Virus record (IMG/VR): IMGVR_UViG_3300044825_002770
Span: 1 to 40,882 of that record
DNA: 40,882 nucleotides
Source: a virus
Direction: 5' to 3' (one strand)
In this document: piece after piece, positions 14,943 to 40,882 of the stretch
How the letters are laid out: the number at the start of each line of letters is the position of its first letter
Position numbering within the stretch: position 1 is the stretch's first letter
Program-made: the position numbers and the translations under genes
The notes under the pieces: model-generated
The model's database searches: none
What the model was told of the DNA's origin: nothing
The model's input: only the letters and a program-made list of their open reading frames with translations

Positions 14943-15542
14943 TTATTTCTCCTTGTGCTTCTCACACATCGCTAACAAAGTGTCTTTCCAATCACGCCAG
15001 AAGCGCTGGGCATGCTGGTCCATTCTGTCTATCCGTGCGTCGTTAAACGCTGCCCATTCTTTATGCGGGTGGAATTCGCATCCTATCTGCATGTGATTGT
15101 CCCAAATAGTAACAAACCAGCGCAGATTCCCGATTTGTATCGGCGCTTTCGTGACTGAGATTTTCTTACCGTCTGCGCCCCTTAGGACTGCGCCCATTAG
15201 GACTGCGCCCCTTAGGACTGCGCCCCTTAGGTCTGCGCCCGTTAGGTCTGTGCGCGTTAGGACTGCGCCCGTTAGGTCTGCGCCCGTTAGGACTGCGCCC
15301 ATTAGGACTGCGCCCCTTAGGACTGCGCCCGTTAGGTCTGCGCCCGTTAGGTCTGCGCCCGTTAGGACTGCGCCCGTTAGGTCTGCGCCCGTTAGGTCTG
15401 CGTCCGTTAGGACTGTGCGCGTTAGGTCTGCGCCCCTTAGGTCTGCGCCCCTTAGGTCTGCGCGCTCGCCCCCGGCCGCGCCCTCCATCCATCTCCTGTG
15501 ATTCAGCAGGATTTCCTGCAAACGTTTAACTGTGATTTTCAT
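14943..15542 (-). CDS. Pentapeptide-repeat protein
   Basis: A 199-residue protein. Residues 1-27 are a short non-repeat start. Residues 28-125 are about 20 tandem pentapeptides of the ADLTG/AVLRG type, which form a right-handed quadrilateral beta-helix. The last 70 residues (APIQIGNLRWFVTIWDNHMQIGCEFHPHKEW) are a C-terminal region common to phage pentapeptide proteins. Such proteins may mimic DNA or act as scaffolds; no specific target is evident. ATG is preceded by an AT-rich divergent region with inverted repeats. Confidence 0.85.
   Translation of the reverse strand: MKITVKRLQEILLNHRRWMEGAAGGERADLRGADLRGADLTRTVLTDADLTGADLTGAVLTGADLTGADLTGAVLRGAVLMGAVLTGADLTGAVLTRTDLTGADLRGAVLRGAVLMGAVLRGADGKKISVTKAPIQIGNLRWFVTIWDNHMQIGCEFHPHKEWAAFNDARIDRMDQHAQRFWRDWKDTLLAMCEKHKEK
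15172..15465. repeat. 15-bp tandem repeat array (pentapeptide coding)
   Basis: About 20 units of GTTAGGTCTGCGCCC and close variants (CTTAGGACTGCGCCC, ATTAGGACTGCGCCC). The period of 15 bases equals five codons. Units differ mainly at the first base and at GGT/GGA. Because the period is a multiple of three and no unit holds a stop, other frames also stay open here on both strands. Those long open frames are by-products. Confidence 0.95.
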
Positions 15543-15838: not shown

Positions 15839-16279
15839 ATGGAAACAAAAGGAACAGAAAGGATTTTGACCGGTCGGTTCTTTCGCGAACCGCTCAAGGT
15901 TTTTCTGGCGGCGTTGAATGTCGCTGCCGTGGAAAGCCGGAAGCTGACGCAGACAGAACGGGCCATCAAAAAAGTAGAATACAGCCTGGAACATGATTTC
16001 CGGGAAGGGTTCGCACCGCGCGAACACAAGTTAGACGCGTACAGCCTCGCAGGCCGTGAACTTGCAAGACTGGAAACGGCCAATATCGAAGATTTGAAAA
16101 TCGCAAAAATTACGCAGGTACGCGCACAGCTGAAAGCGGCTGAAACGCTGGTCGCGGAACTTCAGCGCATACTTGCAGAATTGGACAACGAAAGGGGTCC
16201 TACGGTATTCCTGGAGCGTCAACGGGAGTTTCGTGAAGCCCGCGAAGGAAGGGGTAAAAAGCGGGCGGTCGCTGTATGA
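15839..16279 (+). CDS. Helical protein, unknown function
   Basis: A 146-residue protein predicted almost wholly helical. Residues 75-125 look like a coiled coil (DLKIAKITQVRAQLKAAETLVAELQRILAEL), and the C-terminus is basic (EGRGKKRAVAV). The start is 2 bases after the preceding stop. It overlaps the RmlD-like gene by ATGA, so the three genes 15639-17088 form one operon. I recognise no family. It may be a structural or regulatory partner of the neighbouring genes. Confidence 0.6.
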   Translation: METKGTERILTGRFFREPLKVFLAALNVAAVESRKLTQTERAIKKVEYSLEHDFREGFAPREHKLDAYSLAGRELARLETANIEDLKIAKITQVRAQLKAAETLVAELQRILAELDNERGPTVFLERQREFREAREGRGKKRAVAV

Positions 16280-17088
16280 TTCTGCTCATTGGTGGACGCG
16301 GGCAGCTCGGGCAGGCGTTGCAAAACGCCCTGCCCGAAAACTCTTTCGTGCTGGCCCCTCCTGTAATTGGCAACATGTGGGCAATTTGTGACATGGCCCG
16401 CAGACCGGAAATTGAAACGGTCATAAATTGCGCCGCGTGGACGGACGTCCGGGGAGCAGAAAACCCGGAAAACTGGCTGACCGTGGATCTGCTAAACGTA
16501 GCGTTTCCCGGAACTCTGGCGAGGATCTGCCGCGACCACGGCAAGCGGTTTATAACGTTTTCAACTGACTATGTATTCGACGGCGCGAAGCGGGAACCGT
16601 ACACCCCGGAAGACCGGCCGAACCCTATTAACCGATATGGACTGTCGAAATACGCGGGAGAAGTGATTTGCAGAAACACCGGGGCGGTTATCATCCGCAC
16701 CGCCGGCCTGTTCTCACCGTACGGTCCGAATTTCGTACACACGATTTTTGACCGTCTGCGGGTGCAAGGCGTGGTCAATGTCACAACGGCGCTGACTACC
16801 AACGTGACCAGCGCGGACAGCCTCGCAAGAGCTGTAGCGCGTACGTTAGAGTTTGCCACTACACCACCGGGAACCTACCACTACACGGACCCCGAGCCGG
16901 TCACCTGGTATGACGTAGCCGCCCAGGTAGCCGGTGCTATGGGTTTAGCACCGGACGCAGTCAGACCCACGGAAAAGGGGGACGGGGTCACCCGGCCGCT
17001 TTTCTCTGCGCTGTGGTGCCCGGTGTTTGATCAGAACTGGCGGGACGAAGTGGCGCGCGTGGTGGGGATCTTCAAAGCGAGGACTTAA
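16276..17088 (+). CDS. RmlD-like NDP-4-keto-sugar reductase
   Basis: A 270-residue extended SDR enzyme. Visible motifs are the cofactor loop GGRGQLG (6-12), the active-site strand STDYVFDG (96-103) and the catalytic YGLSK (Tyr121, Lys125). The C-terminal RPLFSALW resembles the RP-S-L motif of RmlD. RmlD reduces dTDP-4-keto-rhamnose with NAD(P)H; here the substrate may be another 4-keto sugar. Its likely partners are the C-methyltransferase and glycosyltransferase 1.6-4.3 kb to the right on the other strand. It converges with the recombinase by a 17-base overlap. Confidence 0.85.
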   Translation: MILLIGGRGQLGQALQNALPENSFVLAPPVIGNMWAICDMARRPEIETVINCAAWTDVRGAENPENWLTVDLLNVAFPGTLARICRDHGKRFITFSTDYVFDGAKREPYTPEDRPNPINRYGLSKYAGEVICRNTGAVIIRTAGLFSPYGPNFVHTIFDRLRVQGVVNVTTALTTNVTSADSLARAVARTLEFATTPPGTYHYTDPEPVTWYDVAAQVAGAMGLAPDAVRPTEKGDGVTRPLFSALWCPVFDQNWRDEVARVVGIFKART

Positions 17089-18676: not shown

Positions 18677-19897
18677 CTACAGGGACAGAATCAGCCCCTT
18701 GAACCCGAGGGAACGTAGACGCGCGGACAGAGCCCCGGTCAGGTTGCGCGACAGGATGACCGCAACGTCAGCCCACGCGACAGTCTCCGGGCTCATCGGA
18801 TTGATTTCTAGATTCGTGCCAGGTGAAAACTTGCCCTGTTTTTCCGGGGTGTCATCTACCAGATAGAGCAAGGACAGCGGGTCCAGCCCGTGCACTGTCT
18901 GGGCGAAATTCAAAAACACGTTAGATTTTGCGGACGCCGTAACGCCTATTATATCGCTGTAAGGCGCAATCATTTGCAGCATGGTTTTGACCCTGGCTAC
19001 GTCCAAATCTACGCCTTGATTGAACTCCACAATCCAGCCAGGGGAGAAAAACGCCTTCTCCTGTGCGATCATGTCCACGCATGCGGGTGCATGATCGAAA
19101 CCGGTACCGGGCCGCAGCCAGAACCGCAAAGTGCCGCAGTGAATCGCAGGAAAGAAAACCACGTTTGCCACGTCGAACCCGTGCCGCCCCGCCAGCGCAG
19201 TCATGGCCGTAACGCTCCAATAGCTTACATGCTCATGGTAAATGGTGTCAAAAGCGCGGTTCTCAATCATGGCTTTGAAGCTCGGGACTTCGATAACAAA
19301 AAGCCCGTCTTCATCTATAGAAGAACGTACCGCGCGGAAAAAATCGTGTATGTCGTCAACATGGCCGACCACGTTTTGAGCGATAAACGCGCCCGCGTAA
19401 CCGTGCTTGCGCACAAACCAGACAGCCGTGTCTGTGTTCCAGAAGTCTTTGACTTTCACGTAGTCCGCAGGAGCGTCATCCTGGGCAACGTCTACAACAA
19501 AGCCCCGCGCGTCAGGGATGACCGCCAGGACTTCCCGCATGCATGCCCCGTCATTGCCGGCGATGTCAACCACGGACCCGATGCCCATCGAATGCACGGC
19601 GGCAACCCGCAGAGATTCAGCAAGCCCCGCGCAATGTTCGCGGAAAACGCCGGACACAGACGATTTGTACACGTAGTCCTTATATAGCACTTCAGGACTG
19701 ACCACAAGCGACAGCTGCCCGAGTTTGCAGCTGTGACAGGTCATAAGGCGCTGTTCATAACGCGGGGCGTTCAAAGCGCTTTCGCGGTCAGGCTGCAGAC
19801 CGTTAGACAGGGGCATTCTCCCGAAGTCCATAACTTCCGTAAGCGGGCCGCCGCATACTCTGCATTCTGTGTGTGGGTGTGTCTGTTTGTATTCCAT
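18677..19897 (-). CDS. NDP-hexose C-methyltransferase (NovU/TylC3/TcaB9-like)
   Basis: A 406-residue protein with all three domains of the family. The N-terminal zinc site is C12xxC15 and C54xxC57. The SAM domain includes VVDIAGND (109-116), and the catalytic segment YHEHVSY (220-226) has the Tyr, Glu and His positions of TcaB9. The C-terminal domain has DDTPEKQGKFSPGT (348-361). These enzymes methylate the C3 of NDP-4-keto-deoxysugars to give branched sugars. GGAGAAAAGG lies before the ATG. It ends in a strong terminator and is the last gene of the leftward operon. Confidence 0.9.
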   Translation of the reverse strand: MEYKQTHPHTECRVCGGPLTEVMDFGRMPLSNGLQPDRESALNAPRYEQRLMTCHSCKLGQLSLVVSPEVLYKDYVYKSSVSGVFREHCAGLAESLRVAAVHSMGIGSVVDIAGNDGACMREVLAVIPDARGFVVDVAQDDAPADYVKVKDFWNTDTAVWFVRKHGYAGAFIAQNVVGHVDDIHDFFRAVRSSIDEDGLFVIEVPSFKAMIENRAFDTIYHEHVSYWSVTAMTALAGRHGFDVANVVFFPAIHCGTLRFWLRPGTGFDHAPACVDMIAQEKAFFSPGWIVEFNQGVDLDVARVKTMLQMIAPYSDIIGVTASAKSNVFLNFAQTVHGLDPLSLLYLVDDTPEKQGKFSPGTNLEINPMSPETVAWADVAVILSRNLTGALSARLRSLGFKGLILSL

Positions 19898-20123: not shown

Positions 20124-21398
20124 TCAGTTATGCACAAGCAAAACGCCGGGCACAAGCTTGAATCTCTGCCAGCCCCCGTTTTCCTGTGCAATCTTGTTTA
20201 AGTACGTCCAATCAGATGAATGACTGTAATCAGGCCAGCCCGCTTTCCCGGCCAGCTCCGCGCGTACCATTACACCCGCGCAGTCTATAAAACCCCGCCG
20301 GGGGCTCACCTGAATTATGTTGTACCCGTCTTCCACGTTCTGCTTTCCGGGCTGCGGAACCTGACCGGGAAAGCCCGCGTAGTTGTGGACCATTGCAGAA
20401 CAATAAGCCCCCGGCGCGTCCGGGTTGTCATCTAACGCCTTGACCAGCTTCTCCAGATAAAAAGGCGCGTGGTAGTTGTCGTGATTCGTGACCACTACAT
20501 AAGTGCCCTGAATCTTTCCAGTTTTGATCTTCTCCAGGTACTGTTCCCGGATCGGATGCCCGTAGTGTTTGCGCGGGCCCGGCTCCTCTATAAAATGAAT
20601 GCGCTTGTCTTCGTAGCGCGGGAAATCATTAGGAGCCGGGCCGTCATGCACCAGGTACAATTCCCAGTTGTGATAAGTCTGGGCGAGCATTGAAGGGACC
20701 AGCACCGGGTGTGTCTCGTACGCGGTTGCAATCACAATCACTTTAGAACCCTTCGCTTTCAGGTTCCAGACCTTTTCAAACTCCTGCCGGCGGTTGATCC
20801 AGCCATGCCCGCCGCCGCCGCTGTCCCAGGCGGAAGACTCCCGAAGCGCTGCAATCTGCACGGCTTTGAGTCCTGCCCCCAGCACCTGTTCCCGCAGGGT
20901 GTGCGGCCCACGATGTTCGAACCGGTAGCACTCTTCTTTAGTGCGCACAGGGTCCACAGGGAATTTGAGTTTTTCTGCAAGCTCCTTTCGCAGCATAAAC
21001 CCGGTTGTCCTGACATGTGTTTTGATCTGTGAAGAGATTTCCAGACACGTAAGGCCGCATAACGGATCTTTGAACGGAGCGAGGTAGTCCGCCACGAAGG
21101 AAGGTTTCATTGCAAAACAATCGTCCGTGAACCATAGCAAGTATTCGTAATTGTAGTCAAACCCGGCCAGACGCTTTCTGCACACGTCCTGGAAAGCCCC
21201 GATGTCCATGCCGACATTCTGCCGGGGGATGTAACGCGCTCCGGCGGCCTCTACTCTGGCCCGCACTTCCGGCGACGGGATTTCACAGTTGTGAATAACT
21301 GTGAAAGTGACCCCGTCGCGCGGTACCTGGGCAAAGATCGACAGCCAGTAGTCCAGATTTTTCATCCGGTTATAAACGAGAACAACGACGGAAACCAC
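20124..21398 (-). CDS. Two-domain GT2-type glycosyltransferase
   Basis: A protein of about 424 residues. The GTG at 21398 suits the AAGGAG site, while a TTG at 21404 overlaps the preceding stop. The N-terminal half has SVVVLVYNRMKNLDYWL and the acidic motif WFTDDCF. The C-terminal half has a second start (KVIVIATAYETHPVLVPSMLAQTYHNWELYLVHDG) and TNHDNYHAPFYLEKL, so two GT-A domains are fused. It would transfer a sugar from a nucleotide donor to an acceptor not identifiable here. The C-methyltransferase downstream and the RmlD-like enzyme could supply the donor. Confidence 0.85.
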   Translation of the reverse strand: MVSVVVLVYNRMKNLDYWLSIFAQVPRDGVTFTVIHNCEIPSPEVRARVEAAGARYIPRQNVGMDIGAFQDVCRKRLAGFDYNYEYLLWFTDDCFAMKPSFVADYLAPFKDPLCGLTCLEISSQIKTHVRTTGFMLRKELAEKLKFPVDPVRTKEECYRFEHRGPHTLREQVLGAGLKAVQIAALRESSAWDSGGGGHGWINRRQEFEKVWNLKAKGSKVIVIATAYETHPVLVPSMLAQTYHNWELYLVHDGPAPNDFPRYEDKRIHFIEEPGPRKHYGHPIREQYLEKIKTGKIQGTYVVVTNHDNYHAPFYLEKLVKALDDNPDAPGAYCSAMVHNYAGFPGQVPQPGKQNVEDGYNIIQVSPRRGFIDCAGVMVRAELAGKAGWPDYSHSSDWTYLNKIAQENGGWQRFKLVPGVLLVHN

Positions 21399-21400
21399 TG

Positions 21401-21625
21401 TCAACGCTCCTTTTTGAGCCCCGGTCTAAAATCGGGTGTCAGTAATTCGAAACCTTCAGGAGTTCGTTTTTCTCCCCCCGCGTTTCTTCGGTCACATTCT
21501 TCCTGAATGAGAACCATGCCCGCAGAAATCCGAGCGTCCTGCAAATACAGAACGAAACTGCCGGACTCGTCCCCGATACACGGTACCCACGTTTCTCCGA
21601 TCTGCGCAATGCCTGCTTTTATCAT
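21401..21625 (-). CDS. Small protein, unknown
   Basis: A 74-residue protein from the ATG at 21625, placed 8 bases after AGGAG; a TTG at 21631 is the alternative. The sequence has strands (GETWVPCIGDESGSFVLYLQD) and ends RPGLKKER, the codons of which contain the ribosome site for the glycosyltransferase. No family is recognised. It belongs to the tightly packed leftward operon. Confidence 0.55.
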   Translation of the reverse strand: MIKAGIAQIGETWVPCIGDESGSFVLYLQDARISAGMVLIQEECDRRNAGGEKRTPEGFELLTPDFRPGLKKER

Positions 21626-21819: not shown

Positions 21820-22037
21820 GGCGCCCCCTTGTCCAGACCGGTCAGCATGTACTGGGCACGGCGCTGGTCGTTCAAGTCAATCTGCCGGCGAAGCTCTAAC
21901 GCTTCGTCAAGTGCTTCCGGGAAACTGCACCCGGTAGTCTGCACAGCGCCTTTTCCATGCAAGGCCCCGCGCATGTGCCCCGATTCCCATTTTCTGCCAG
22001 GCGTGTCATACACCTGCCTGATTTGTTCTACTCTCAT
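21816..22037 (-). CDS. Small protein, unknown
   Basis: A 73-residue protein with ATGA overlaps on both sides, directly after the primase-helicase. AAGGA lies about 9 bases before the ATG. It includes GRKWESGHMRGALHGKGAVQTTGCSF and a helical stretch (PEALDEALELRRQIDLNDQRRAQY). I do not recognise it. The coupling to the replication gene suggests shared regulation rather than shared function. Confidence 0.55.
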   Translation of the reverse strand: MRVEQIRQVYDTPGRKWESGHMRGALHGKGAVQTTGCSFPEALDEALELRRQIDLNDQRRAQYMLTGLDKGAP

Positions 22038-24160
22038 CGTGTTTTTCCTTTTTTGAATTTCTCTGCGGATTGAATGACGTTGTCCTTCATGTACAGGCGG
22101 GAATGTTTTCCTTCGCGGTGGACTTCGCGCATGAAAAACCCGTTTTCACGGAGCCAGATTGCGGCCTGTTTCTGGGAAAATCTGACGTTAGACGCGTGGG
22201 CGCTGTCCTGTATCCGCTCGGCCATACTGCGAATCGTAAAGCCTGCCCGAAAGAAATCTTGATAGGCGGGGTCGTGCAAACACTCGTCAAGGAAAATGGT
22301 CAATTCGTTCTTGCTGTAGGACCGAAGCTCAATTTTGGATTCAGTGACCGGCGGGGGCGCGTTTACGTGCAGTTTGTCCGCGTACCCTTCCAGATAGTCG
22401 ATGATTGAAAAAAGCCCCTCATCAAAAGTCTGTAAGAGCGTCTCATAATACCCGGTTGACTGCGGCTTTTTACGGTTCACGATAATGAAAAACCGGCGGT
22501 CTGTGGCGCTGATCGGGAGCGCGTTCACGGCATTTGAAAAGAATATGAAATTGCAGAAATTCTCTATTTCAAAGGAACGGACGTACTTGTCAGAGATCCT
22601 GACGCGCGGTTCTGTGATCCAGTTTTTCAACTGGTCGAGCACCGCGAATTTCTCAGACTGCCCCAGCTCATGCACGAAGGTAAGAAACTTGGATTCAATC
22701 CAGGCATTGTTCCCCCGTGCTACTTCAGTGTTTGACGTACTGACCACATAGGACGCGCCCGACACCGCCTGCAGAACCTTTTCAGACAGGTGCTGCAAAA
22801 CGCTCTTCCCGATGCCCTCATATGTAGAAATCAAAAGCAGTGCATGCTTGATCTTCTTCCCCGGTCTTAGCAATGCGCAGGCAAGGAACTTCCGCAGGTG
22901 CTCGAATTCTTCCTCCGTGTTCGTCAGATAACGCAGATGCGTTTCAAACGTTTTCACGTCGGTCTTGCGCACCTTCGATTTTTCCACCTGGGCGATCGGC
23001 TCAAAAGTATTGTAGAACGTAACTCCGGCGGTGTCAAATTCCTGCGGCTCTTCCGGCCGGAATGCCAGGCGGTCCCGAAGGGATACAAGCCGGAAAGTCA
23101 GAACGTATTTCAGCGAGGTCTTGACCCCGGTTGCATAACACACCGCGTTTTCGATCTGGCCCGGCTTTGTGTAGCGCAAACCGGTTTTCGCGTTGATCAA
23201 GATTTCCGCTTCCGCTATGTACACAAAGTCAGACAGAAGCTCTGCAATGCGGCAATCCTCTTCAAACTTGACTGCCATGCGCTCCGGCTTCTCTGCCAGA
23301 TAGCGCCCTGGCGGGTGTTTCGCGTAACGATAAGCGCTGACGGTCTGGTGTGAAACTACAGACGCGGACTCGGGCGGATCACAGAAAAGGTCATTGAATT
23401 TCTGTACAATGCCGAGCGCGGTTTTCTCATCTACAGCAAAGTCACGGCAGCGCAGGGCGAATTGATACAATGCCTGAGAGCGTCCACCGCCGCTGGTGAT
23501 TTTCGGCCGGTCTTTAAGCAGGATGTTCTCAAGCCCCGCGCCTGTTACAACCGGAGCAGGTGCGGCCTTCTCCGCTTTCTCCTGTTTCACTCCGGCAAAC
23601 GCGGACAGCGGGTAACGGGTCCGGGGCATGGTGCCAAGCTGGTAGCCGGGCCCGGTCTTCCCCTTCTTCTTGTGCGCGGTGTAGGGTACCCGCATTAACG
23701 CAGCCGGGTGCGCGGGCAAAACGTCAGCGTCTACAAGTTTCGCAATACGCTTCAATGTCTGTTCATACCCGGCAAAATCCGTCTGCGGTTTGTCTAACAG
23801 ATAGTAGACATGCCAGCGGTCAGCACGCGTGAAACTCCATGAAGGGACCGGAAGGCCCTTGCCCGTGAAATACGCGGCAGGGTCTTCAAAACGTTTCTGG
23901 TCAAAATCGAAATGCAGAATACCGATTGCAGCTAACGCAGACTTTCCACGGCCTTTGCCGTTCTTCTGCACGGTGCCCGGTTTGTAGGTGGCCACGGTGT
24001 AAAAAAGTTCCTGGCTGAAATCCAGCTTCTTTGACTTGAGCTTTTCAACCGGTACGATTTCACACTTGAACGGAGACAGGCGGGAGACTAAAACCGCGTC
24101 CCCGGTGCAGCCTGCGTAGACGTCGGACAAAAACGCTGCAGTGATTTCGCGGTTATTCAT
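22034..24160 (-). CDS. Primase-helicase (AEP-type primase plus D5-like SF3 helicase)
   Basis: A 708-residue protein. The ATG at 24160 is chosen for its ATGA overlap with the polymerase stop. The N-terminal domain has HFDFD (Asp85, Asp87) and RWHVYYLL (His117), like archaeo-eukaryotic-type primases, followed by MRVPYTAHKK. The C-terminal domain has the P-loop YEGIGKS (447-453), FVHELG as a Walker B-like strand (495-500), and FFSNAVNALPISATDRRFFII with the sensor Asn543 and Arg555/556. This combination primes and unwinds the phage origin. The neighbour upstream is the polymerase. Confidence 0.85.
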   Translation of the reverse strand: MNNREITAAFLSDVYAGCTGDAVLVSRLSPFKCEIVPVEKLKSKKLDFSQELFYTVATYKPGTVQKNGKGRGKSALAAIGILHFDFDQKRFEDPAAYFTGKGLPVPSWSFTRADRWHVYYLLDKPQTDFAGYEQTLKRIAKLVDADVLPAHPAALMRVPYTAHKKKGKTGPGYQLGTMPRTRYPLSAFAGVKQEKAEKAAPAPVVTGAGLENILLKDRPKITSGGGRSQALYQFALRCRDFAVDEKTALGIVQKFNDLFCDPPESASVVSHQTVSAYRYAKHPPGRYLAEKPERMAVKFEEDCRIAELLSDFVYIAEAEILINAKTGLRYTKPGQIENAVCYATGVKTSLKYVLTFRLVSLRDRLAFRPEEPQEFDTAGVTFYNTFEPIAQVEKSKVRKTDVKTFETHLRYLTNTEEEFEHLRKFLACALLRPGKKIKHALLLISTYEGIGKSVLQHLSEKVLQAVSGASYVVSTSNTEVARGNNAWIESKFLTFVHELGQSEKFAVLDQLKNWITEPRVRISDKYVRSFEIENFCNFIFFSNAVNALPISATDRRFFIIVNRKKPQSTGYYETLLQTFDEGLFSIIDYLEGYADKLHVNAPPPVTESKIELRSYSKNELTIFLDECLHDPAYQDFFRAGFTIRSMAERIQDSAHASNVRFSQKQAAIWLRENGFFMREVHREGKHSRLYMKDNVIQSAEKFKKGKTR

Positions 24161-26076
24161 TTGACTTTGTCCCCTTTGTGGAATGACGTGCAAACCACAG
24201 TTTTGGAATTCACCGGCATTCCGGGCAACCACGGAACCGACGCCCGCATGATTTTTTCGATGCGCGAAACCCTGCCGCCGGGGGCACTGACGTTCAATTC
24301 GTCGTGAATAATCAACTTGACCGACGCGAAAGGCTGAATTGCCAGAGCTTTTTCTACGGACACGTCAAACGCCACAGCCTGCACCAGATTTTCGTAGAAC
24401 CCGCCGGGGCGCGCTGTCGTCCGAAAGCCTTTCCGGGGCTCCAGATAGGAGAAAGTTTTCCAGCCTTTTGTTCCTGCCGTTTCAACACGGCAGTCTGCGT
24501 AATGTTTGACCCGGCCGGACGGCAGCGCCACAGCCAGCCCGGTTTTGCCGCCCAGGACAACCCGCGAAAAGCCGATGTTGTGGACCTTACAGAATGCCCC
24601 CGTTTCCAGTACCCCCACGGCAGCCTTTATCAGATTGAACCAGACCCGCTTAACGCTCGGGTTTCTCCGGTGGTAGCCGTCAAGAATCCGGCCGGCTTCT
24701 GCTTCTCCGGGGTCTGGCATTCCATAGGACCGGATTTGTGCCCGCAAGCGGTCGGGACCCATTCCGTAGCAGGCCGCCAGGATGACGATTTTGGACAGAT
24801 TGCGGGAAATCTCGGCCGGGAACCCCATCGCATCCCCAAAAATGGTGTATTCGTCCTTTCCGGCGCCGGCGTCTGCGGCCCGGTATATTTCGAGCGTCTG
24901 CAAATCGTCACGTATCCACGCGCCCACGCGGGGCTCAATGGCTGACAGGTCCGACCGGACCATGAATTGCCGGGGGTCCGGGGACAGGCAGGCCCACAGA
25001 AGTGAGGAAAGCCGCTTGACCCGCTCCCCGCGTTTGCCGGTCTTCAGGATTCGCCGGATAGAATCCGCACAATGCAAAGAATCGTCCCCAAACCCGGCCC
25101 GCTTGACGTTCAAAAGATTGATACCGCCGCCGGCCGGCCGGCCGGTGTGCGTCCCGTAGAAAATACTTGAATCGTAAATGCGGGAAAGCTTGTTTTCTAC
25201 AATCAGCCTGAGCTTGTCCGCTCCCCGGCTCTGGATCTCTCTATAGAAGGAAATCAGATTCAGGCAATCTTTCGGCAGCTTCGCCCCGCGTTCTGCCAGA
25301 AAATCCTCAAGGTCTTTCTCTGCTATGCTGTCTACCGGGTACCCATGGGCGGCCAGGTATTTTTTGACCTGGTCCGCGCTGGCCGCAACCGGGCTTTTGT
25401 CTTTCCCGTAGGTGCCGAAGGCCCGCGCTGCGGCTTTGCGCGCTTTGTCTTTCTCCTGTAAAATGCACGCATACAGAGACTGCGCGCGGGGCTGGTTAAC
25501 CAGAATGGGACTCTGATTCATGCGGTTAATCATGCCGTGCATTTTGACCGCGTACGGGTCCATGCTCCCCGGTTTCGTAAGTACGTTGTACAACTTGCGT
25601 AGAAGATTCACGTCCTGCTTGTTGTACTGCTCAAGGGCCTTTTTTTCCACGCGCTCAAGCGGCGCACCTTCGCGCAGCTTTTTCAAAATGGTCTTGCCAG
25701 CGTCGAGCTTTTGCCCGAGCCCGAAATAAGCGGCAGCACCGTCAAGGGACGCGGGCACCGAATAATAACGGCACAGGGCCGCCGTGTCTATCCATTCAAA
25801 AGAACCGCGGAACACCTTTCCAAAAACAGCACGGTCGAAGTCTGCGTTGTGCGCTACAAACAACGTGCCCGGTTTTGCAGAGCTGCGCAGACTCATAAGC
25901 GCGTTGTAAGGCGCGTTGTTGGCAGGCCCCAGCGCGTATTGAATGCGCCCGGAACCGACAGCCCAGGCAACGGAAACAACGCGGAAATCCTTCCCATTCA
26001 CGTAAGCAGTAGGACCCAGGGAAATGTCAACGTCAGAGTATGTTTCAAAGTCGATAAAGATGACAGGGGGTTTCAT
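24157..26076 (-). CDS. Family A DNA polymerase with 3'-5' exonuclease
   Basis: A 639-residue protein. The exonuclease motifs are FIDFET (Asp9, Glu11), HNADFD (77-81) and YNKQDV (Asp155). Polymerase motif A is RSDLSAIEPR (374-383), motif B RNLSKIVILAACYGMG (425-440) and motif C IHDELNV (590-596). All catalytic residues are present, so it should be an active proofreading replicase. There is no 5' nuclease domain. It is transcribed with the primase-helicase and ssDNA-binding genes. Confidence 0.92.
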   Translation of the reverse strand: MKPPVIFIDFETYSDVDISLGPTAYVNGKDFRVVSVAWAVGSGRIQYALGPANNAPYNALMSLRSSAKPGTLFVAHNADFDRAVFGKVFRGSFEWIDTAALCRYYSVPASLDGAAAYFGLGQKLDAGKTILKKLREGAPLERVEKKALEQYNKQDVNLLRKLYNVLTKPGSMDPYAVKMHGMINRMNQSPILVNQPRAQSLYACILQEKDKARKAAARAFGTYGKDKSPVAASADQVKKYLAAHGYPVDSIAEKDLEDFLAERGAKLPKDCLNLISFYREIQSRGADKLRLIVENKLSRIYDSSIFYGTHTGRPAGGGINLLNVKRAGFGDDSLHCADSIRRILKTGKRGERVKRLSSLLWACLSPDPRQFMVRSDLSAIEPRVGAWIRDDLQTLEIYRAADAGAGKDEYTIFGDAMGFPAEISRNLSKIVILAACYGMGPDRLRAQIRSYGMPDPGEAEAGRILDGYHRRNPSVKRVWFNLIKAAVGVLETGAFCKVHNIGFSRVVLGGKTGLAVALPSGRVKHYADCRVETAGTKGWKTFSYLEPRKGFRTTARPGGFYENLVQAVAFDVSVEKALAIQPFASVKLIIHDELNVSAPGGRVSRIEKIMRASVPWLPGMPVNSKTVVCTSFHKGDKVK

Positions 26077-26346: not shown

Positions 26347-27000
26347 TCAGCGGTGTTTCTTCTTGCCGCTGCCTTTTTTCTCTTCTTTTTTCTTCGCCGG
26401 GGCGTCTGCTTTTTTCACGCCGCCCACAACTGCTTTAGACTGGGAACCTTCCCACGGATCGGACGCGCCTGAAATTGGCTCGCCGTCATCCGCAAAACGG
26501 ATGCCGTTCAAATAGTCTTTGATTGTGATCGCCCCGCGCTGGTTTGCGACAAAAGCCACTTTCGCGTCAACGTAGCACCCCGCATAAAACGCGTCATGCG
26601 ACGGATTGACGTACAGCCTGCCCTTCGGCCGAAAGCCGCTGTCTACCTGTTCCGCAGGTGCGGAAGGGTACAGAATGCGGCAGCCCGGAGTCTGCGCCGG
26701 CTGGAATTTCTTTTCATCAAAATGCTCAAGGGCTACGTCTGGAGACCAACCTTTGATTTTCTTTTTGGAGAAGGTTTCCCGGATCGATTTCATAAGCGCG
26801 TCAAGCTCTTTCCCTTCGGGAATCTCAATGCCGGCTTTGAAATTGTACGTGGTGGTGCCTTCGTACTCGCTTTCTACCACTTCGGAAATGCCGTCGAATA
26901 CAAGCCGCACACCTGTAAACATCACTTCAACGCCTTTTTCTGTGGTGGTCACGGACTCAATGCACGAACCCGTCTTTTTCTGAGTTTTCTTTGATTTCAT
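26347..27000 (-). CDS. ssDNA-binding protein (DUF2815 / Enc34-type)
   Basis: A 217-residue protein with the DUF2815 pattern: an N-terminal strand block (GVRLVFDGISEV, TTYNFKAGIEIPEGKE), then WSPDVALEHFDEKKF, and later GRLYVNPSHDAFYAGCYVDAKVAF, which is the OB-fold segment shared with T7 gp2.5-like proteins. The C-terminus here is a Lys-rich tail (PAKKKEEKKGSGKKKHR), not the usual acidic tail of SSB proteins. The gene lies in the replication operon. The basic tail is a departure worth noting. Confidence 0.8.
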   Translation of the reverse strand: MKSKKTQKKTGSCIESVTTTEKGVEVMFTGVRLVFDGISEVVESEYEGTTTYNFKAGIEIPEGKELDALMKSIRETFSKKKIKGWSPDVALEHFDEKKFQPAQTPGCRILYPSAPAEQVDSGFRPKGRLYVNPSHDAFYAGCYVDAKVAFVANQRGAITIKDYLNGIRFADDGEPISGASDPWEGSQSKAVVGGVKKADAPAKKKEEKKGSGKKKHR

Positions 27001-28263: not shown

Positions 28264-29016
28264 TTAATTTTTTCTTTTCAATATGGGTATGGCCGTCGCT
28301 TCTTTTAACCGCCTGTGAATTGTCTTCACATAAAGAGCGTCTTTTTCTATTAGAATGAAATTACGCCCCGCGTGGACACATGCAACCCCCGTTGTACCCG
28401 AGCCCGCGGCATTATCAAGAACGACGCCGCCAACATTTGTGTACGTGCGAATCAGATACTCGAACAGCGCCACAGGTTTCTGTGTTGGGTGGGTGGTTTT
28501 TCCCTCGCTCGCAAATTCAAGAATAGATCTTGGATAACCCGTGGCGGCTCTGATATGAACTTGTGCGGATTTTCCGAAGTTTCCGCCGTTATGCGATTTT
28601 CCTCTGTTCACTTCTTTTCCATAAGGGATTAGACCCTGTGGGTTATAGACCGTTTGTCCACACGCAAAAACTAAAATGTCCTCATGCTCCCGCATCGGCC
28701 GGCGTTTTGCGTCCAGATGCCCAGTGGGTCTTGTTTTTTTCCATACCCACGAATACCGGAGCCAGCTAAGATTTGATGCGCCTAGCTGAGATGTGAACGG
28801 TTGGGCGCACGTCAGCACAATTACGCCGTTTTTCTTGATAACTCGTTTATACTCTTTCCAGAGCGGTTCAAGCGGAATTATGCTGTCCCACTTATTCTGT
28901 GTCGTGCCATAAGGGAGGTCACACAGAACCATGTCAATAGACCCGGTTTCAATACTCGGGAGGGCTTCCAGACAATCGGCATGCATCACATTATCATAAA
29001 AATTTTTCTTTTTCAT
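28264..29016 (-). CDS. DNA methyltransferase, beta-class arrangement (DLPY)
   Basis: A 250-residue protein. Catalytic motif IV DLPYG (33-37) comes first, and the SAM motif NAAGSGTTGVAC comes near the C-terminus, preceded by HPTQKPVALFEYLIRTY. This order is typical of beta-class N4-cytosine or N6-adenine methyltransferases. There is no companion restriction enzyme, so it may protect phage DNA. Its ATG overlaps the helicase stop by ATGA. Target bases cannot be read from the sequence. Confidence 0.88.
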   Translation of the reverse strand: MKKKNFYDNVMHADCLEALPSIETGSIDMVLCDLPYGTTQNKWDSIIPLEPLWKEYKRVIKKNGVIVLTCAQPFTSQLGASNLSWLRYSWVWKKTRPTGHLDAKRRPMREHEDILVFACGQTVYNPQGLIPYGKEVNRGKSHNGGNFGKSAQVHIRAATGYPRSILEFASEGKTTHPTQKPVALFEYLIRTYTNVGGVVLDNAAGSGTTGVACVHAGRNFILIEKDALYVKTIHRRLKEATAIPILKRKN

Positions 29017-30278
29017 ACAAACCCCCTGACGCCTGTTTCGGTATCGTGCAATGTGTCCAGATTGTCGAGCTTTGCGCGGACTGCTTCGGCCATGCGCACC
29101 TCGACGTCAATGTCTGAGTACAAAATCGACTGGATGGCAGCGGACTTTGCCCCTGCGCGGTGAATGCGGCCCAGTGCCTGTTTCAAATTCACGGCAGACC
29201 AGTCCGGCATAATGAGCGAATAACGCGGCTTTCCGTTTATGTCGTGCAGGTCAAGCCCCACGCCGCCGGACTGCAGGTTACACAGAATAACCGGCGTTTT
29301 GTTTTCCTGGAACCGCAGGCGCTCCGCTTCCCTTTCTTTCGGGCTCTGGCCCCCACGAACCACTGCCGGGCTGACGCCGCCTAGCTGAATTGCTAGCTCA
29401 TTGATTGTCTCATTGAAATTGCAGAACACCGCAACGCTGTAGCCTTCATCTATAAGATCATCCACTTTCTCAAGCACGTATGGTATCTTGGCTTTCTCGG
29501 AAGCCTGACGCGCGCGAAGTTCTTTTACCAGGTGGTCCCCGCCTGTCTTTTTATCACTGGCGCGTAACGCTTTGAAGTAATCTTCGTACGCTTTTTTCAA
29601 TGCGGAGTCTTCCTGACTGGAAACGATTTCAATGGAGACGTGGTTTTGCTTGAACATCTCTCCCGCGTCTTCGATGCTCATGGCAGACACGAAAGGCGCA
29701 ATTCTGCGGCGTGTAATGTCCACAGCGTTTTCGGTCTTCGGCAGCCATGACCCACCCCACTTGTTCTGTTCGTAGTAGTAGCCGCAGGCGTACATAAACG
29801 CGGAAAATGAATTTGTGTTTGCCAGGTTGAAAGCGTCATTCCATGCGCGAAGGTGCTCTGCGTGGTGGGCGATTGTCGCGGACAGCGCAAGGATTTTGTA
29901 ACCGCTCCGCGCAATGCGTAACATGGTTTTCGCATTTCCGGTTTTGTGGTTCTTGCACCGATGTGCTTCGTCATAGATGACAAGAGCATTCTTTGGAAGT
30001 TTGATTTCCTGCGGTGTCACGAATCCTTTCGATTTTGTAAGTGATTCGTAATTTACGGATACGAGGGAGACGCCCAGCGCGGCAGCGGTACGCCGCCAGC
30101 CTGGCAGAGTCCCGAGCGGTGCCACGACAGCGGCAGGCCGCCCGAGTTCTTTTGCAACTGTGAGCGCACAAATGGTCTTGCCGGTTCCAGTTGCGGACAG
30201 ATCAAACGCGCCGCGTTTGGTTTCAAGGATTTGAAGCAGGCGGTCAACGTGCCGCCGCTGGTATTTGTAGAGTTTCAT
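29013..30278 (-). CDS. SNF2-type DEAD/H helicase
   Basis: A 421-residue protein. The start at 30278 (MKLYKYQRRH) is chosen for the ATGA overlap and the GGGGGA site 6 bases upstream; a farther ATG at 30293 lies in that site. Motif I is SATGTGKT (28-35), motif II DEAH (103-106), motif III LSATI, motif V LQSGGVGLDL and motif VI QALGRIHRAG. It is a superfamily 2 DNA translocase that may help replication, recombination or chromatin-like clearing. It opens a cluster with a methyltransferase and a nuclease. Confidence 0.9.
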   Translation of the reverse strand: MKLYKYQRRHVDRLLQILETKRGAFDLSATGTGKTICALTVAKELGRPAAVVAPLGTLPGWRRTAAALGVSLVSVNYESLTKSKGFVTPQEIKLPKNALVIYDEAHRCKNHKTGNAKTMLRIARSGYKILALSATIAHHAEHLRAWNDAFNLANTNSFSAFMYACGYYYEQNKWGGSWLPKTENAVDITRRRIAPFVSAMSIEDAGEMFKQNHVSIEIVSSQEDSALKKAYEDYFKALRASDKKTGGDHLVKELRARQASEKAKIPYVLEKVDDLIDEGYSVAVFCNFNETINELAIQLGGVSPAVVRGGQSPKEREAERLRFQENKTPVILCNLQSGGVGLDLHDINGKPRYSLIMPDWSAVNLKQALGRIHRAGAKSAAIQSILYSDIDVEVRMAEAVRAKLDNLDTLHDTETGVRGFV

Positions 30279-30577
30279 TTTTTGTTCCCCCATCTCACGG
30301 GATGCCCGTATAAAAGGGGCGGCATGGTTTTCGCGGAATGAGTAGTGTGAGAAAAAAGAACCCCGTTTGAAATCACAATAGTCATATGGCCTGTAATTAT
30401 GCCATTGTAATAAATTTCGATAGCGTATACCGCTTCCGCATGGGAGCCCAGAGCTTTTTTGATTGCGGGCATTCCGGTTCTGGTGTCACTGATTGCCCAC
30501 CGGTCCCCGTCGAACCCCGTGAACGTGAATCCCTTCAATTTACCGGTTGCGTTTATCTCAATTGTGGTGTCTTTCAT
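30275..30577 (-). CDS. First gene of the leftward operon, unknown
   Basis: A 100-residue protein. ATG at 30577 follows GAGGAAAAC; the frame continues upstream to 30631 without a good site. It is strand-rich (KLKGFTFTGFDGDRWAISDTRTG; AEAVYAIEIYYNGIITGHMTIVISNGVLF). No family is recognised. Being the first gene next to the iteron-rich control region, it could be a regulator or an early host-takeover protein. It overlaps the helicase by ATGA. Confidence 0.55.
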   Translation of the reverse strand: MKDTTIEINATGKLKGFTFTGFDGDRWAISDTRTGMPAIKKALGSHAEAVYAIEIYYNGIITGHMTIVISNGVLFSHTTHSAKTMPPLLYGHPVRWGNKK

Positions 30578-30990
30578 TTCAGTTTTCCTCTGTCGGATGA
30601 ATCCGAACCTGACGACATACAGACACAGCACGAAATCGCCGTCAATAGTAAAATAATATTTTTTTACATGCCCTGACCGGAGCCGTCTTTCTTATAGAAG
30701 AGACCTGCACCCGGAGGGGGCGTGTACGGCATAATAAACATTTTCAAGTATTGAATCCCACAATCCCACAATCCGGGGCCGTTTTTTGAGCTTTCTGTTT
30801 ACTTATCAAATGTAACGTGAACAAATGACGGTAACCGGCGAAAGCCGAAAAATGACTGACGTTATTCGATTTTGGGATTGTGGAGCGTGTAAAAAAGTAC
30901 TGAAAAACAGGGCTTTTTTGTAAATATTGGAATTTCTGTCCCAGAATCCCACAATCTGAGAGGGGCATTTTTCGGGGTGCGGCCCTGAGT

Positions 30991-31010
30991 GACAGACCGA
31001 TCGGTCTGTC
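30991..31010. promoter_or_regulatory. Perfect 20-bp palindrome (candidate operator)
   Basis: GACAGACCGATCGGTCTGTC is its own reverse complement over 20 bases with no central gap. It sits in the middle of the iteron array. This length is typical of operators for dimeric TetR-like or HTH repressors. The binding protein is not identified. Confidence 0.75.
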
Positions 31011-31194
31011 CATTTTACGGGGCGGCGTCCAAAAACGGGTTTTCGGTCTGGATTGTGGGATTCAGCATTTTTCAGCCCGGAAACACGCGGAATCGGGATT
31101 TTCTAAAAACACCCTGAAAACAGGGCTTTTCTATGCGAAAGTGAAACTTGCAAAAATTATACTTTCCCACAATCCCACAATCCCATAATCTTTT

Positions 31195-31214
31195 TATATT
31201 TAATGATAAATATA
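31195..31214. promoter_or_regulatory. AT-rich inverted repeat beside the iterons
   Basis: TATATTTA, ATGA, TAAATATA is an 8-bp inverted repeat made almost only of A and T. It begins 7 bases after the 31165-31188 iteron group. The flanking 100 bases are very AT-rich, so it may belong to a DNA-unwinding element or a promoter. Confidence 0.6.
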
Positions 31215-31372
31215 CGATACTACACACATGTATTACTATACGTATGTTTCTTTTTTTTCTCTACAAAGAGAGATGAATTTCACATTGTGGGATGGGATTG
31301 TGGGACAGCCTGTTTTGTTAAAGTTACATTTTTTTACTTGTCTTCCTGCCCGGTGTGTGCGAGTGTTCACAC

Positions 31373-31573
31373 ATGGGATTCACAAAGCTAGACCCGGCAC
31401 AATTGCCGGCAAAAAAAGAAGGATGGACGAAAGCAGAACTTGCAGCGCGTTACAAAACGTCTCTCAATGTTATAGCTGTCTGGTTTTCACGTCTGCGGAA
31501 AACGAAACAATACACTGTGGAGCGTGTGCGGACGCCTGACCGTTACATAGTGCGCAGAGCAAAGAAGAAATGA
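31373..31573 (+). CDS. Helix-turn-helix protein at head of late operon
   Basis: A 66-residue protein from the ATG at 31373; a GTG at 31355 is also open. WTKAELAARYKTSLNVIAVWFSRLRK looks like a helix-turn-helix, followed by a strand pair (QYTVERVRTPDRYIVRRAKKK) that would form a wing. It is basic, so DNA binding is likely. It may regulate the control region or take part in packaging. No ribosome site is obvious. It overlaps the next gene by ATGA. Confidence 0.6.
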   Translation: MGFTKLDPAQLPAKKEGWTKAELAARYKTSLNVIAVWFSRLRKTKQYTVERVRTPDRYIVRRAKKK

Positions 31574-39409: not shown

Positions 39410-40882
39410 ATGCAAGGCATTAGACGTATCAACCAGAACCCGGCCGAACAGACCGTGGAAAGTTTCCTCGCCGCAGCCAATGCGGTAGCGGAACAACAAA
39501 GACAGCGCGGGCTGCCTCATGAGTTTCTCGACGTGCGCAACGCGCGCACCGTTTACCAGAAGCTCGTCAAAACCGCAATTGCGCTGTCAGACTCTTCCCA
39601 TCCGAAGCACAACGAAGTTTTCAACTCGTTGACTGCGCAGTTCGGGAAGAACTCTGAAGCGGTTAGCTTCCTGCAATCCGTGGGCGACAGCCTGCAGCGT
39701 GACACGGCCGAGCTTGCAACTCTGTTTGCAAAAAACGGTCTGCCCGCCGAGAAAGCAGTAGAAGCCGCTTTCAACTCGATCGCCGGTAACCCGGTATTTG
39801 ATCACTTCGGGAATCTGAACCTCCTGGCCGGTCAAATGTACCAGGACCAGGCGTTCATTGAGGCTTTCCTGTCTTCCGGTGACGCTTTCGCGGTTCCTAC
39901 AGAACCGGGCAGCACCGGCCTTGACACTTCCCGTTTCCGCGCTCCTGTCGAGCAGGTAGCCGGCTCCGCTAAGATCCTGCAGGGCGATTTGAACCCGCAC
40001 AGCTCTTTGCGCGCGGATGCAAATCGTACACAGATTTCTCTGTACAACGAATTCAAAAACGCGCTGACTCTTGGTACCGTGTTTTCGATTTCCCAGGCAC
40101 AGAGAGATCAGGCGCTTGGTTACGAAAAAGCGGTGTCTCCTGCTCTTGCAGGTTTCATTCTGCAAAATCGCTACTTCGGCGCGGCACAAAAGCAAGTGAT
40201 GAAACTTGCGGAAGTGCTTTTTGTCGGCGGTCTGAATGCAGCGGGAACGTACACGCCTAACGTGGGCGGCTCCTATGGCATTCTGTCGTCCGCAATTCAG
40301 CTTGCACTTGCAGACTGGGACGCCAACGCCCCCGTGGTAGCGTCCGGTGCTGACTGGCTTGCCGACCCTACCAAGCTTGTGCAGAAGGTGCAAAACGCCA
40401 TCTACAAGCCAACCAGTGTAGCGGCGCAACTTGACCCGACAATTGACAGCGCGAACATGTACAAAGAACTTGTGCGCCTGTTCCAGCTGCCGGCACAGCA
40501 AAACGTCGATTTCACTCCGAAAGAGTGGGCGCTGTTTGTACCGTCTAGCTGGTATGGTCTTGCAATGCAATACCCGTCCGGTGGAACGTTCAACAAGCAA
40601 TTGCAGGAAATGGTCACAACCGCAACCGGCGGAAAGATCGTAAACAAGATCAATGTGATTCCTACAAGCCTCTTGAACTACGGTGCGGACATTGGCAACG
40701 GCCAGTCCAACGCTTACAACTACATGGTGCTTGTGGCGATGGGTTGCCGTCAGGAAAACAAACCGGTCATTATGCCCGGGCAGACTGCGCTGCCGATTGT
40801 GACCAGTGAAAACGTCTCCGCGTCGATTATGAACTTCCGTACCGAATACATCTTCGGCGGGCCAATGTTCATGCACTACGGC
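39410..40882 (+). CDS. Major capsid protein (start; continues at window start)
   Basis: 491 codons are open to the window end and the gene finishes at 269 after circularisation, 502 residues in all. AGGAG precedes its ATG by 11 bases. The N-terminal 120 residues are helical (ESFLAAANAVAEQQRQRG), and the rest is mixed with a long beta segment. The length and place after the scaffold and cement genes identify it; the sequence EFKNALTLGTVFSISQAQRDQ is not a motif I can name. Its N-terminus might be trimmed by the DUF2213 protease. Confidence 0.85.
   Translation, partial: MQGIRRINQNPAEQTVESFLAAANAVAEQQRQRGLPHEFLDVRNARTVYQKLVKTAIALSDSSHPKHNEVFNSLTAQFGKNSEAVSFLQSVGDSLQRDTAELATLFAKNGLPAEKAVEAAFNSIAGNPVFDHFGNLNLLAGQMYQDQAFIEAFLSSGDAFAVPTEPGSTGLDTSRFRAPVEQVAGSAKILQGDLNPHSSLRADANRTQISLYNEFKNALTLGTVFSISQAQRDQALGYEKAVSPALAGFILQNRYFGAAQKQVMKLAEVLFVGGLNAAGTYTPNVGGSYGILSSAIQLALADWDANAPVVASGADWLADPTKLVQKVQNAIYKPTSVAAQLDPTIDSANMYKELVRLFQLPAQQNVDFTPKEWALFVPSSWYGLAMQYPSGGTFNKQLQEMVTTATGGKIVNKINVIPTSLLNYGADIGNGQSNAYNYMVLVAMGCRQENKPVIMPGQTALPIVTSENVSASIMNFRTEYIFGGPMFMHYG

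Follow-up and report, generated by a model that had tools for sequence, protein, structure and literature searches.

The stretch of DNA analyzed here, referred to as the window, comprises 40,882 nucleotides and is the entire IMG/VR virus record IMGVR_UViG_3300044825_002770. Our subject is a 550-bp region at 30756-31305, in which copies of the octamer TCCCACAA, here called the octad, cluster in both orientations, and which is very probably a phage replication origin of the type known from P4 and the phage-inducible chromosomal islands (PICIs). The region is non-coding and is flanked by a leftward gene starting at 30577 and a rightward gene starting at about 31373; two short overlapping open reading frames (ORFs) within it are without support. 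The early operon begins at about 30.6 kb and points leftward, and the late genes point rightward from about 31.4 kb, with both converging near 17.08 kb. The array consists of the following elements:

30756 to 30771, plus strand: group A, two contiguous exact copies of TCCCACAA (motif count).
30870 to 30885, minus strand: group B, two degenerate octads, TCCCAAAA and CTCCACAA (mismatch search).
30939 to 30954, plus strand: group C, one degenerate octad, TCCCAGAA, and one exact octad (motif count).
31053 to 31060, minus strand: group D, a single exact octad (motif count).
31165 to 31188, plus strand: group E, three octads in direct succession (two exact, one TCCCATAA), bordering the proposed melting site on its left.
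31189 to 31284, no strand: octad-free gap of 96 bp, 76% AT, the proposed DNA unwinding element (AT scan).
31285 to 31305, minus strand: group F, two exact octads at 13-bp spacing, opposite to group E and forming the right flank of the melting site.

The exact octad occurs eight times in the 40.9-kb genome, and all eight copies (plus-strand starts at 30756, 30764, 30947, 31165, and 31173; minus-strand starts at 31053, 31285, and 31298) fall inside 30756-31305. The chance expectation is 1.44 copies per genome, and a count of eight was reached in none of 100 shuffles. Octads with one or two mismatches (minus strand at 30870 and 30878, plus strand at 30939 and 31181) bring the total to 12 sites in six groups, whose orientation alternates (+ - + - + -) from A to F; the octads are spaced as contiguous 8-bp tandems, with one 13-bp spacing. 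Among 40 genomes simulated with a third-order Markov model, the densest 8-mer clusters within 600 bp held three or four copies and never more than four. The only 8-mers of the real genome that are denser than the octads, at about 15.2 kb, stem from a pentapeptide-repeat protein gene (14943-15542), the origin of the densest 8-mer repeats in the genome. These counts bear out the first-pass annotation, which had described at least eight exact copies together with degenerate ones, in both orientations, within a non-coding region between divergent operons; the whole-genome motif count that it proposed confirmed that the exact octads are not spread evenly.

The array had also been said to adjoin very AT-rich DNA, and indeed the gap between groups E and F is in the top 0.03% of genome windows by AT content and overlaps the genome-wide 96-bp AT peak (78%, at 31185-31280). 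Groups E (plus) and F (minus) thereby oppose each other across the AT maximum of the genome. Together they are predicted to form a long hairpin (z, -5.4), which lends some support to an alternative that agrees with our reading of the region as an origin and differs in how the octads work. In this scenario, the main role of the inverted octads would be to form a stem-loop in single-stranded DNA or to serve the primase part as its recognition sequence on the template, as in pRN1, where an essential stem-loop of ~100 nt lies 3' of orf904 (PMC4234260), or as in NrS-1, which has an 8-nt recognition sequence with one copy per strand (PMC7102993). The NrS-1 polymerase also provides the closest solved helicase domain to the window primase-helicase described below (E value of 5e-57 by profile); unlike in the window, only two recognition octamers have been reported in the NrS-1 genome (PMC7102993). 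However, any inverted repeats produce a hairpin, and multiple tandem octads in several groups better fit double-stranded binding by a multimer. We consider this mode of action unlikely. The sequence TTTGGTTA, a possible NrS-1 recognition sequence, is absent, and we draw no conclusion from its absence.

The octads could instead be operators through which a phage regulator, such as the 66-amino-acid helix-turn-helix (HTH)-like product encoded at 31373, controls both divergent operons. They do lie between these operons, with groups A and E close to possible promoter DNA, the small HTH-like gene adjoins the array, and a perfect 20-bp palindrome in the region suggests binding by other regulators. 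On the other hand, a sigma-70 consensus promoter scan returned nothing above shuffles, no family match was obtained for the HTH-like protein, and an array of 12 sites that spans 550 bp about the AT maximum exceeds ordinary operator arrays. Furthermore, in the wider class of arrays described below, the layout sits 3' of the primase gene and not at promoters. Altogether, the operator explanation appears quite improbable to us. The palindrome itself (GACAGACCGATCGGTCTGTC, 30991-31010) is unique in the genome, is situated almost midway between groups C and D, and looks like the operator of a dimeric repressor. An exact repeat, AAAACAGGGCTTTT, lies between groups B and C (30904-30917) and again between D and E (31117-31130), the second copy being terminator-like. 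The sole match of an Rfam search was sub-threshold and at chance level, and a 19-base exact search for tandem octads retrieved one viral contig, which is unrelated and was judged to reflect chance or convergence.

A further possibility is an origin recognized by the host DnaA or by a classic Rep- or O-type initiator. While the core CCACA is common to the octads and DnaA boxes, this is a sequence resemblance only, and TTWTNCACA, which occurs four times in the genome, is absent from the array region. The early-operon proteins scanned, a set that leaves some small ORFs outside, gave no Rep or O family match, in agreement with the first-pass annotation, which had recognized no Rep of a known iteron class. 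We deem such an initiator extremely improbable. The candidate origin proposed at that stage finds good support in the relatives and annotated origins described below, but it is not of the classic Rep/iteron plasmid kind, and the region is devoid of DnaA boxes.

Scans with single proteins, namely TerL, the SNF2 helicase, and the primase against viral contigs and PolA against genomes, returned no relatives, but a search with the capsid protein identified two true relatives, G017 and G018, in which the order of the capsid and other structural genes is kept. G017 (38.8 kb) is collinear across the structural genes (TerL, 62% identity; capsid, 63%), and its primase is 34% identical to that of the window over almost the full length. 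In G018, a 22.5-kb record that is possibly a fragment, TerL and the capsid protein are 51% and 54% identical, respectively. Neither relative has a cluster of TCCCACAA. Instead, the homologous intergenic region of G017 holds all six genome copies of TTACTTAGAT, in both orientations, and 10 copies of TAAGTAA, and these surround that genome's own AT maximum, whereas the homologous region of G018 holds all four genome copies of CCCATACC, along with CATACC pairs, 9 bp apart, that oppose each other across ~89 bp. A strict octamer finder missed the signal in G017 and most of that in G018; both were spotted by eye in the sequence and then counted. The position and layout of the array are therefore kept while the octamer word has changed, which matches the prediction for a co-evolving initiator-origin pair, and this turnover of the iteron word at a conserved position suggests initiator-origin co-evolution. 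Of all our tests of the origin reading, we regard this comparison with the relatives as the strongest. Elsewhere in G017 (28285-28607), 22 same-strand copies of ACTCCGGG within 320 bp overlap predicted ORFs and represent a tandem-repeat gene.

We furthermore surveyed 80 phage loci that were collected by aligning distant PolA proteins. When these loci were screened blindly for octamers that cluster in both orientations, many arrays emerged, mostly directly 3' of a gene for an ~800-amino-acid Walker-motif protein, and these genes proved to encode VapE-like/DUF5906 primase-helicases. Among the 43 loci with an available 3' flank, 22 have an octamer that occurs five or more times, in both orientations, no more than 500 bp 3' of the VapE/DUF5906 primase-helicase gene, compared to 4 of 1,458 control windows from the same loci (Fisher p of ~1e-33), although the effective number of loci is somewhat below 43 because some are near-duplicates. 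Control windows within the loci were used since a random-pattern scan intended as the control set yielded four loci only.

In all 19 scorable loci (the window included), that is, those with an octamer-free gap of 50 to 160 bp, the octamers on either side of the AT-rich gap are opposite in orientation; five other loci have no such gap. Gap length is 85 to 106 bp in 17 of the 19, and 18 gaps are in the top 5% by AT content; as the gap was chosen as the most AT-rich one, its AT content is partly selected, but the orientation of its flanks is not. Same-strand octamer spacing has modes at 9 (8) bp and at 12 to 13 bp, with 8 and 13 bp found in the window. The triplet ACA is present inside 11 of 15 distinct octamers (null, 17%) and also inside TCCCACAA. 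The putative origins of the VapE/PolA phages (L007, L025, L075, and others) resemble the window array in having a private octamer, an AT-rich gap of 85 to 106 bp, opposite flanks, and a tandem spacing of 8 to 9 bp, but differ in having the array directly 3' of the primase gene and initiators of the VapE type. Two further arrays are of note. In L098, a 5,126-bp viral contig and possibly a satellite or plasmid sharing the same origin type, 10 copies of GTCTCAAA lie directly 3' of a DUF5906-type primase gene (2510-2836). In L004 (Glutamicibacter phage Montesquieu), seven copies of AGAGCATG in both orientations (238-456) lie at the start of the early operon, upstream of the VRR-NUC, SNF2 helicase, and primase genes, the same location as in the window.

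Annotated origins provide a second comparison. In the P4 record, octamers of the sequence TGTTCACC are annotated as "ori type 1 repeat" and are present in direct and inverted form in both ori and crr, and the locus L086 carries an identical or nearly identical word. Like the window, P4 has direct and inverted octamer iterons, an ori in a divergent intergenic region, here upstream of the early operon, and an initiator with a DUF5906 helicase domain; unlike the window, it has the octamer TGTTCACC, a second array (crr) immediately beyond the 3' end of the alpha gene, and an alpha protein with a Toprim primase, and it is a satellite. In the record of Streptococcus phage Sfi21, the annotated origin measures 302 bp and immediately follows the 3' end of a DUF5906/Pox_D5 gene; it contains nine copies of AGTAAC around the genome's AT maximum and GTAACTAA pairs opposing each other. 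Repeats in both orientations around the genome's AT maximum and a DUF5906/Pox_D5 gene are thus shared with the window, while the core motif (AGTAAC) and the position relative to the gene differ. In PICI origins, an AT-rich region is always flanked by two iteron sets (PMC6092414), and in the Rep of the Staphylococcus aureus pathogenicity islands (SaPIs), the iterons are read by the C-terminal domain (PMC7581432). The PICI/SaPI structures of PriRep1/SaPI5 (7pds and 7ola) have a helicase domain related to that of the window primase-helicase. In contrast to the window array, which lies 6.5 kb upstream of the primase gene, PICI/SaPI origins lie directly 3' of rep, and PICIs use helper phage structural genes, whereas the window represents a complete phage that itself encodes PolA, a terminase, a portal, and tail proteins. 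Our reading of the region as an origin draws on this layout being shared by the relatives, the surveyed class, and the annotated P4 and Sfi21 origins.

Several observations weigh against this reading. Of the DUF5906 contigs closest to the window primase, the majority lack an obvious array beside the gene, and most of the class has the array directly 3', whereas ours is 6.5 kb from the primase gene; by this position, at a divergent promoter region as in P4 ori, the window array departs from its class. The GC skew turns near 30 kb but is inseparable from the direction of transcription. The C-terminal part of the primase-helicase is modeled at a predicted local distance difference test score (pLDDT) of ~50 to 65 or lower, and a fold search with it gave no significant match. 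Finally, the array is near terS in all three group members, which also fits a packaging site (pac or cos) bound by the small terminase subunit (31997), the arrays of G017 and G018 adjoining terS/terL as well. Because the array keeps this position in the relatives, we retain such a site, although as a distinctly remote prospect: in the larger class, P4, and Sfi21, the same layout accompanies a primase-helicase or an annotated origin, and an AT-rich gap between inverted iterons is unexpected for packaging.

Assuming that the region is an origin, the genes of interest around it are as follows:

22034 to 24232, minus strand: primase-helicase, the proposed initiator, with a superfamily 3 (SF3; DUF5906) helicase domain (family and profile matches).
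24157 to 26076, minus strand: DNA polymerase A (PolA), in the same early operon as the primase-helicase (family search).
26347 to 27000, minus strand: Gp2.5/Enc34-like single-stranded DNA-binding protein (SSB) (family search).
29013 to 30293, minus strand: SNF2-type helicase near the candidate origin (family search).
From 31373, rightward: small gene adjoining the array, encoding the 66-amino-acid HTH-like product (no family match).
From 31997: terS, small terminase subunit; the array lies ~0.7 to 1.2 kb upstream.

The first-pass annotation had named the primase-helicase and the products of the genes at 30577 and 31373 as candidate initiators. We found nothing specific for the latter two and favor the primase-helicase because the DUF5906/SF3 domain is common to P4 alpha, Sfi21 orf382, and the VapE-type primases adjoining arrays. 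Its DUF5906 match has an E value of 4.8e-18, hhalign links it to P4 alpha (1.3e-7) and Sfi21 orf382 (1.5e-9), and its helicase domain also matches the NrS-1 polymerase and PriRep1/SaPI5. AlphaFold2 models the helicase core well, in blocks mostly of 85 to 97 pLDDT. Motifs and a very weak match point to an N terminus resembling archaeo-eukaryotic primases (AEP-like), and the C-terminal part appears winged-helix-like, as its secondary structure in the low-confidence model (helix-helix-helix-strand-wing-strand) follows the pattern of that fold. The primase-helicase probably reads the octads. In the mechanism that we propose, its C-terminal DNA-binding domain would bind the octads, and hexamers assembled at the E and F sides would melt the AT-rich gap and then load onto the strands. 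The primase part would synthesize primers, and PolA and the SSB would build forks running outward, codirectional with both divergent operons.

The two ends of the record (1-233 and 40650-40882) share a 233-bp overlap that lies within the capsid gene and contains a single mismatch; the genome is therefore most likely complete, either circular or circularly permuted, and ~40,649 bp long, despite the IMG/VR classification of the record as linear. By family search, the genome encodes a contractile-tailed phage, with tail sheath-like and baseplate proteins, terminase, and portal, together with a tyrosine integrase, PolA, the gp2.5-like SSB, a DUF2800 nuclease, the SNF2 helicase, and the primase-helicase. 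RmlD-like reductase (16276-17088), sugar-methyltransferase-like (18677-19897), and glycosyltransferase-like (20124-21404) genes, as judged by eye from their translations, form a cluster near the integrase gene that is possibly glycan-modifying cargo.

Beyond this phage, we lean toward the view that two inverted iteron sets around an ~90-bp AT-rich gap constitute an origin module that is general among tailed phages encoding an SF3 (VapE/DUF5906) primase-helicase. Each lineage would then possess an octamer of its own, with an ACA half shared by all, and the C-terminal domain of the initiator would read it. The layout of inverted iteron sets was previously described as common to PICIs and as present in no other known bacterial replicon, and it connects how satellites such as P4 and the PICIs replicate with how complete phages do. 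For most uncultured phages, no origin has been mapped. As the layout is explicit (octamer groups, opposite orientation, an AT-rich gap of 85 to 106 bp, and an SF3 primase-helicase), origins become predictable from sequence alone, and if the general module is true, both the origin and its specificity would be readable straight from the genome sequence.
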